From assembly GCA_025055335.1 (NCBI GenBank), contig JANWXJ010000229.1, forward strand, positions 1 to 37,565: a DNA stretch of 37,565 nt, written 5' to 3'. The DNA is from Acetobacteraceae bacterium (GTDB taxonomy: Bacteria > Pseudomonadota > Alphaproteobacteria > Acetobacterales > Acetobacteraceae). The first letter of the stretch is position 1. Each line of letters opens with the position of its first letter. The position numbers and the translations under genes were made by a program. The notes beneath the pieces were generated by a model. The model made no database searches. It saw only the letters and a list, made by a program, of their open reading frames with translations, and had not been told where the DNA came from. Below are positions 4,991-7,058 of this stretch, in pieces.

Positions 4991-5860
4991 ATGGCGACCG
5001 ACGTTTGGGTGAACGAGACGCTCTACGCCGAATGGGGGCAGCGCTTCCGGGTGAAGCGCGAACTGGCCCGCGTGCAGAGCCGTTTCCAGGACATCATGAT
5101 CTTCGAGAGCTACACCCATGGCCGGGTGATGCTGCTCGACGGCGTGGTGCAGATCGCCGAGATGGACGAGTTCGTCTACCAGGAGATGATCGCCCACGTC
5201 CCGCTGATCGCCCACGGCAGCGCGCGGGACGTGCTGATCATCGGCGCCGGAGACGGCGGCGTGCTGCGGCGGGTGCTGCAGCACAAGGGTGTCGAGCGCG
5301 CGGTGATGGTCGAGATCGACGGCGAGGTGATCCGCCTGGCGAAGGAGTTCCTGCCGAACATCGGCGGGAACGCCTGGAGCGACCCGCGCGCCGAGGTGAT
5401 CGTCGGCGACGGCATAGACCACGTCCGCACCGCGCCGGACGGGTCGTTCGACGCGATCATCGTGGACAGCACGGACCCGATCGGGGTTGGCGAGGTGCTG
5501 TTCACCGACGAGTTCTACCAGAACGCCGCCCGCATCCTCCGCGGCGACGGCGTGATCGTGAACCAGTGCGGCGTGCCGGCGATGCAGGCGGATGAGCTGC
5601 GCGACACCTCGGCGCGACGGGCGAAGTTCTTCCCCGACGTGTCGGCCTATGTGGCGGCCGTGCCGACCTATGTCGGCGGCTTCATGACGCTCGGCTGGGC
5701 GGGGCGGAACCCGGGGCAGCGCGCGCTCGACGTCGGGACGCTGCGGGCGCGGGCCGAGGCCGCCGGCATCCTCGGCACCACCCGCTACTGGACGCCCGAG
5801 GTGCACTGGGGCGCGATGCAGCTTCCGCCCTACATCGCGGAGCACCTTCCGAAGCGCTGA
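4991..5860 (+). CDS. speE: Spermidine synthase (polyamine aminopropyltransferase)
   Basis: 289 residues, the normal length. It transfers the aminopropyl group from decarboxylated SAM to putrescine. The N-terminal beta domain carries LYAEWGQRF and the gatekeeping stretch around YQEMIAHVPL. The Rossmann fold has GAGDGG at residues 85-90, the ribose-binding acidic residue in VMVEID, and catalytic Asp159 in IIVDSTDP, matching Asp158 of E. coli. The C-terminal YVGGFMTLGWA motif is also typical. A CAGGGGACC ribosome site precedes the ATG. It ends convergently towards the minus-strand fliP group, with a palindromic GCCGCGCGCGGC at 5871-5882 in the short gap. Confidence 0.96.
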   Translation: MATDVWVNETLYAEWGQRFRVKRELARVQSRFQDIMIFESYTHGRVMLLDGVVQIAEMDEFVYQEMIAHVPLIAHGSARDVLIIGAGDGGVLRRVLQHKGVERAVMVEIDGEVIRLAKEFLPNIGGNAWSDPRAEVIVGDGIDHVRTAPDGSFDAIIVDSTDPIGVGEVLFTDEFYQNAARILRGDGVIVNQCGVPAMQADELRDTSARRAKFFPDVSAYVAAVPTYVGGFMTLGWAGRNPGQRALDVGTLRARAEAAGILGTTRYWTPEVHWGAMQLPPYIAEHLPKR

Positions 5861-5884: not shown

Positions 5885-6058
5885 TCAGGCGGGCTGCAGC
5901 CGGTCCGCCGTGCCGCTCGCGCCCACCATCGGCATGCCGTTTTTGGCGCCGGTCGCCCTGTAGTCGATGTCGATGCCAAGCACGGTGTCGGCGAACACGA
6001 CGCCGAGATAGGCCTCGACCTCGCGGCCCTGGGTCGTGGAGGTGGTGACGAGGATCGT
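5885..6058 (-). pseudogene. Decayed YbjQ/UPF0145 (heavy-metal-binding domain) gene: start codon lost and middle deleted
   Basis: On the minus strand the frame reads ILVTTSTTQGREVEAYLGVV, then shortly GIDIDYRATG and MPMVGASGTADRL. These are the N-terminal strand and the C-terminal strands of the YbjQ/UPF0145 family, which is normally about 105-110 residues. The central roughly 50 residues (the usual helical block ending in ALGADAV) are missing with the frame kept, leaving about 57 residues. The codon where ATG should be is ACG at 6058-6056, behind a good ribosome site (AGGGAG), and no ATG, GTG or TTG is available upstream before the fliP stop. It lies 29 bases after fliP on the same strand. 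I infer a relic; a tiny gene using a non-standard start is the alternative. Confidence 0.65.
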
Positions 6059-6087
6059 GGCGCGCTCTCCCTGTTGCGCGGCCGATC

Positions 6088-6813
6088 CTAGCCGCCCGCG
6101 AATCCCTGCACGAGGCTTCCCGACACCAGCGTCCAGCCGTCCACCAGCACGAAGAAGATCAGCTTGAAGGGCAGCGACACGACGGACGGCGGCAGCATCA
6201 TCATGCCGAGGGACATCAGCAGAGACGCCACCACGAGGTCTATCACCAGGAAGGGCAGGAACAGCAGGAAGCCGATCTCGAAGGCGCGCCTCAGTTCGCC
6301 GACCATGAAGGCCGGCACCAGCGCCCGCCAGGGCGCCTGGTCGGGGGAGGCGGGCGGGTCGAGCCGGGCGAGATCGAGGAACAGGGCGAGATCCTGGTCC
6401 CGCACATTGGCCGCCATGAAGGCACGGAACGGCTCGGCGGCGGCGGCGAGCCCGTCGAGCTCGCCGATCCGGCCCTCCGTCATCGGCTGGATGCCGGCGG
6501 CCCAGGAGGCTTCCAGCACCGGCTGCATGACGCAGAAGGTGAGGAACAGCGCCAGCCCGATCAGCACCTGGTTCGGCGGGATGCCGGGCGCGCCGATGGC
6601 GCTGCGCAGAAGCGCCAGCACGATGACGATCCGCGCGAAGGCCGTCGCCATCACCAGCAGCGAGGGCGCGAGCGAGAGCAGCCCGATCAGCGCCGCGAGC
6701 TGCACGAGGCGGGCGGTGTTCCCCGCCCCGCCGCCGCCGAGATCGAGCGAGACCGACTGCGCCGCCGCCGGCCCCGCGGCCAGGAGCAGCCCGAGGAGGA
6801 GAGCCGCGCGCAT
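6088..6813 (-). CDS. fliP: Flagellar export gate protein FliP
   Basis: 241 residues. FliP forms the pore of the flagellar type III export gate in the inner membrane. The ATG at 6813 gives a signal peptide (MRAALLLGLLLAAGPAAAQS), as is normal for FliP. Family motifs follow: LLSLAPSLLVMATAF, RIVIVLALLR, GIPPNQVLIGLALFLTFCVM, a periplasmic segment with low conservation, then AFMVGELRRAFEIGFLLFLP and DLVVASLLMSLGMMMLPP, ending in SLPFKLIFFVLVDGW. The start overlaps the fliO stop by one base (TGATG). A GTG three or more codons upstream is possible but adds nothing. The gene is oriented away from fliQ/fliR, which is a split of the usual fliOPQR order. Confidence 0.96.
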   Translation of the reverse strand: MRAALLLGLLLAAGPAAAQSVSLDLGGGGAGNTARLVQLAALIGLLSLAPSLLVMATAFARIVIVLALLRSAIGAPGIPPNQVLIGLALFLTFCVMQPVLEASWAAGIQPMTEGRIGELDGLAAAAEPFRAFMAANVRDQDLALFLDLARLDPPASPDQAPWRALVPAFMVGELRRAFEIGFLLFLPFLVIDLVVASLLMSLGMMMLPPSVVSLPFKLIFFVLVDGWTLVSGSLVQGFAGG

Positions 6814-7058
6814 CACAGCCACCCCACCACGACATCCTGCGGGCCGCCGGTGAGCAACAAGGCCTCCCGCCCGTCGCAGCGGACGATGAGGAGGCGGCGG
6901 CGCGAATCGAGCGGCAGCACCTCCTCGACCTTGAGTCTTCGCCCGGCGGCGGGCGCGAGGCCGAAGCGCCGGGCGCCGCGCGCGAGCAGCAGCAGAAGCG
7001 CCACGATGCCGGCGAGCAGCGCGGCGGCCAGAAGCCAGGTTCCTGTCGGGATCGTCAT
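6813..7058 (-). CDS. fliO: Flagellar biosynthesis protein FliO
   Basis: 81 residues, small as is typical of alphaproteobacterial FliO. One transmembrane helix (residues about 8-26, LLAAALLAGIVALLLLLARG) is followed by a basic cytoplasmic part with the family pattern RLKVEEVLPLDSRRRLLIVRCDGREALLLTGG-type strands (quoted in pieces: VEEVLPLDSRR, LLIVRCDG, EALLLTGG). FliO helps assemble the FliP ring. It overlaps fliP by one base, so the pair is probably translated together. A purine-rich AAAAGG lies upstream of the ATG. It is divergent from flgB across the 200-bp gap. Confidence 0.9.
   Translation of the reverse strand: MTIPTGTWLLAAALLAGIVALLLLLARGARRFGLAPAAGRRLKVEEVLPLDSRRRLLIVRCDGREALLLTGGPQDVVVGWL

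Follow-up and report, generated by a model that had tools for sequence, protein, structure and literature searches.

A pseudogene of ybjQ, formerly an intact gene in the space from fliP to speE, very probably occupies positions 5885-6058 on the minus strand of the window (the whole 37,565-nucleotide stretch analysed here, contig C56 of a 2.92 Mb assembly of 256 contigs that is 84% complete). It looks like ordinary gene loss and not like a new mini-protein, and many relatives lack a ybjQ in this slot. The features concerned are the following:

4991-5860, plus strand: spermidine synthase gene (called speE), convergent neighbour, complete (PF01564, E 2.3e-55)
5885-6058, minus strand: ybjQ/UPF0145 (PF01906) remnant of 57 codons, beginning with ACG and closed by TGA (profile matches, codon alignment)
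5975-5992, minus strand: putative deletion scar GCC GAC ACC GTG CTT GGC, codons 23-28, one merged repeat copy (alignment, repeat comparison)
6056-6058, minus strand: ACG at the aligned start (alignment to 22 intact relatives)
6065-6072, minus strand: Shine-Dalgarno-like AGGGAGAG, retained (by-eye comparison with relatives L032 and L033)
6088-6816, minus strand: fliP (PF00813), upstream neighbour, complete, stop TAG at 6088-6090 (profile E 9e-75)

The frame runs on the minus strand from ACG (6056-6058) to TGA (5885-5887), and its 57 codons translate to TILVTTSTTQGREVEAYLGVVFADTVLGIDIDYRATGAKNGMPMVGASGTADRLQPA, followed by the stop. A first-pass annotation had proposed that it keeps both ends of a YbjQ-family protein, and this was borne out by a match to Pfam PF01906 (YbjQ_1) in two colinear stretches, with an E-value of 2.1e-6 and a score of 28.7 bits, above the family cut-off of 23 bits. 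Using a profile of 22 intact relatives the score rose to 64.9 bits, again in colinear pieces (profile positions 2-29 and 74-107), and the top score among 1000 residue shuffles of the fragment was 9.4 bits with the same profile. When the whole window was scanned in six frames with this profile, the sole further match up to E 10 had an E-value of 0.37. The family similarity is not a product of chance. The frame falls short of the full-length domain (about 103 positions), profile positions 30-73 of the relatives being unmatched. Compared with the UPF0145/YbjQ_1 family, which includes the solved members 1y2i, 2gtc, and 1vr4, the remnant has both conserved domain ends in the same order, but it differs by the absence of 51 central codons, the lack of a standard start codon, and altered conserved residues. 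The intact relative from Rubritepida was matched over residues 1-105 in all three solved sequences. Structure predictions were of low confidence, with a mean pLDDT of 48.9 for an intact relative (two-row alignment) and 50.6 for the fragment alone, and were set aside.

The genomic position of the fragment was compared with that of intact genes. The intact Rubritepida protein was searched against 397 genomes of the family to which the window belongs, 75 of which contained some PF01906 match, and the best 20 loci were examined. The gene fliP lay in reach upstream in 10 of these, a convergent speE lay behind in eight, and both were present in five; in a further five loci none of the neighbours fliP, speE, fau, and ymdB was in reach. 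The gene order fliP, ybjQ, and convergent speE is thus shared by these five intact loci and the window, in agreement with the first-pass placement of the gene behind fliP. Since the intact gene occupies the same place in relatives, the fragment sits in the ancestral place, as a remnant in situ. Whole-domain PF01906 matches in the family search scored about 93 to 134 bits. In two genomes (G286:C59:1587-2522 and G405:C147:340-1278) three consecutive partial PF01906 matches share a single open frame, of 389 and 501 residues respectively, and these frames may encode tandem-repeat proteins related to the family.

The slot between fliP and speE is vacant in many relatives. Among the best 29 related fliP loci by score (that of the window excluded), nine had no speE in the fetched stretch; of the 20 with a convergent speE in reach, 18 lacked ybjQ in between and two had it (L087 and L092). 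Taking together 24 distinct fliP/speE slots, the window included, five contained an intact ybjQ, one the remnant, and 18 no trace of the gene, in a sample that mixes loci found via ybjQ with loci found via fliP and so does not represent a frequency. A protein-profile search of the other empty slots revealed no remnants, the best gene-less slot having an E-value of 1.4. When the sequence following each of 49 fliP loci (several of them one genome represented twice) was searched with a DNA profile, over at most 700 bases, only intact genes and the present remnant were detected, and the remaining five matches were on the opposite strand with E-values of 0.066 or worse. Several deep nodes of the FliP+SpeE tree had weak support (28-57), too weak for a count of independent losses. 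Elsewhere in the family, a PF01906 gene at G167:C48:18263-18567 has an internal TAG and its end is matched in another phase; it is possibly a second decayed copy.

A different location of the gene was observed in three relatives. In L010, L011, and L047, fau and ymdB immediately follow an intact ybjQ, which is not behind fliP in these genomes (in L011 it is behind ispE), an arrangement that suggests relocation of the gene. This location was found in two of the best 20 loci, plus the Roseococcus locus. Among the matches listed in a contig scan, the close intact relatives were Rubritepida flocculans and a metagenome-assembled genome labelled Roseococcus, both Roseomonadaceae within Acetobacterales (NCBI taxonomy), in whose genomes fliP and speE are on separate contigs. 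Decay of the fliP-side copy could have followed release from selection by a second, intact ybjQ before fau, a special case of the pseudogene reading that we consider unlikely. It would fit the pattern of Rubritepida and the Roseococcus genome; moreover, the contig carrying fau in the present genome (G000:C119:1-520, L105) begins inside that gene and the place that ybjQ occupies in Rubritepida falls outside the assembly, so that a copy before fau is possible. Against it, a PF01906 search of the whole assembly at E 0.001 found no match, which answers a check suggested in the first-pass annotation within the limits of an 84%-complete assembly. Given the scores of whole-domain matches, an intact copy within the assembly should have been detected; even the remnant went unreported at this threshold, and other fragments would likewise be missed. 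Also against it, ispE in this genome is followed by a tRNA-Gln gene, with no significant ybjQ match behind ispE.

The 5' end of the remnant was then considered. The codon aligned with the first codon of the frame is ATG in 21 of the 22 intact relatives and GTG in the remaining one, and it is ACG in the remnant. Neither ATG, GTG, nor TTG occurs in the remnant frame between the fliP stop and this ACG, and the earliest such codon inside the frame is codon 21. ACG is a poor start codon in bacteria. A Shine-Dalgarno-like sequence, AGGGAGAG, is present at 6065-6072, six bases 5' of the ACG, and by eye the start region of relative L032 is similar (GCGCAGGGAGAGCACGCC-ATG). The change from ATG to ACG next to a preserved ribosome-site-like sequence, as first described, was thus confirmed. 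A measurement over 64 codons as start codons is among the work referenced in PMC11497404. Relative to intact orthologues, the remnant carries two disabling changes, the replacement of the standard start by ACG and the absence of 51 codons.

These 51 codons (153 bp) are missing in comparison with relative L010 and lie just before IDIDY, in line with the roughly 50 middle residues estimated initially. In intact relatives the lost segment is preceded by GDAVLG-like codons and followed by ADAVLG-like codons in equal codon phase, so that an imperfect, direct, in-phase repeat, (G/A)-D-A-V-L-G, flanks it. The two copies are alike at 10 to 16 of 18 bases (median 13.5 of 18 in the 22 relatives). As a reference, the similarity of all other window pairs in phase and separated by at least 30 codons was computed. 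L039 is the relative that differs least from the fragment in nonsynonymous terms (54 codons); its repeat agrees at 16 of 18 bases with an exact run of 12, and none of 2627 other pairs was as good; in several relatives it is weak (10-11 of 18 bases), with up to 6.6% of other pairs as good, the weakest being L051 (10 of 18 bases, 6.6% equal or better). Codon 23 of the fragment encodes Ala, whereas the left repeat copy has Gly at this position in 22 of 22 relatives and the right one Ala in 21 of 22; the residue fits the right-hand copy and not the left. From these comparisons we infer that the copies before and after the middle mispaired, by replication slippage or short-homology recombination, which would have removed the 51 codons and left the frame unchanged. 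A single transition would have turned the start ATG into ACG and substitutions would have accumulated, in an order of events that is likewise conjectural, and the locus would presumably no longer yield a product. The repeat is seen in the intact relatives and is presumed for the ancestral sequence of this lineage.

Deletion between short direct repeats is a general route to bacterial pseudogenes. The remnant resembles this class in its putative short-repeat deletion, its start loss, and perhaps also in the hints of relaxed constraint in its C-terminal half, and it differs from it in that the repeat is in codon phase and the frame survived. When the repeats that bound a deletion share the codon phase, the reading frame is bound to survive, and its openness here does not argue that a short protein was selected. 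Loss of a segment in frame can thus come about without selection for a shorter product; in this case the in-phase repeat is formed by conserved motifs at the two borders of the lost segment.

Substitutions in the remaining codons were examined for evidence of relaxed selection. Three near-invariant columns are changed in the remnant. Two of the changes fall in the last conserved stretch of the domain: L94P, at a column that is L in 21 of 22 intact relatives, and V103D, at a column that is V in all 22. The third, G23A, is probably the deletion scar and not separate decay. Nine of the 54 compared residues, A23 among them, are absent from all 22 relatives, and leave-one-out counts for the relatives ranged from 0 to 5, the one exception being L003, a member of a different family of the class, with 11. 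The fragment was not extreme in substitutions with negative BLOSUM scores (five, against six in L026 and L028 and seven in L003). Nonsynonymous differences were compared over 54 codons with 18 near relatives, four more distant ones being omitted. In the C half, the median for the fragment (0.262) was higher than that of each of the relatives (at most 0.228), with single pairs of intact genes reaching 0.299; in the N half its value of 0.187 was inside their range (0.118-0.224). This suggests, on 54 codons, relaxed selection in the C-terminal half only.

The initial annotation had left the choice between decay and a retained mini-protein, in which the middle would be dispensable and a 57-residue form would be translated from ACG. 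Three features speak for the latter and against a pseudogene: the frame is open with a normal stop, the ribosome-site-like sequence is retained, and the N half has not diverged beyond intact copies. On the other side stand the poor start codon, the proline and aspartate in place of conserved L and V, and the in-phase repeat, which explains the kept frame. In addition, a query with the deletion junction against 60 genomes (its own included) retrieved only the window itself and G036, where an intact gene gave a two-piece match; none of the 59 other genomes, all of other genera, showed a junction-spanning match. A contig scan for the same short form recovered only the two intact relatives among the matches listed. 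The decay part of the first reading stood, on the family match, the start loss, the in-frame loss of the middle, and the ancestral place, and the mini-protein part found no support. We regard a retained, translated short form as very improbable, and a UPF0145 mini-protein that lacks the domain middle and still performs a function of the two conserved ends as slightly more improbable again.

Equally hard to credit is an assembly or consensus artefact, in which an intact gene would have lost its middle during assembly: the assembly is fragmented and incomplete, but the repeat of about 18 bases is below the length that assembly collapse usually needs, and one would also have to take the altered start and the substitutions, which are independent of the deletion, for errors.

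For the pseudogene reading favoured here, the consequence of the remnant goes little beyond annotation. A 316-residue open frame (5885-6835, minus strand), with an ATG near the fliP start and in another phase than fliP, spans the remnant. The possibility that fliP and the fragment are fused through this frame was rejected, since fliP stops at the TAG at 6088-6090 in another phase. Automatic gene callers could misannotate this open frame.
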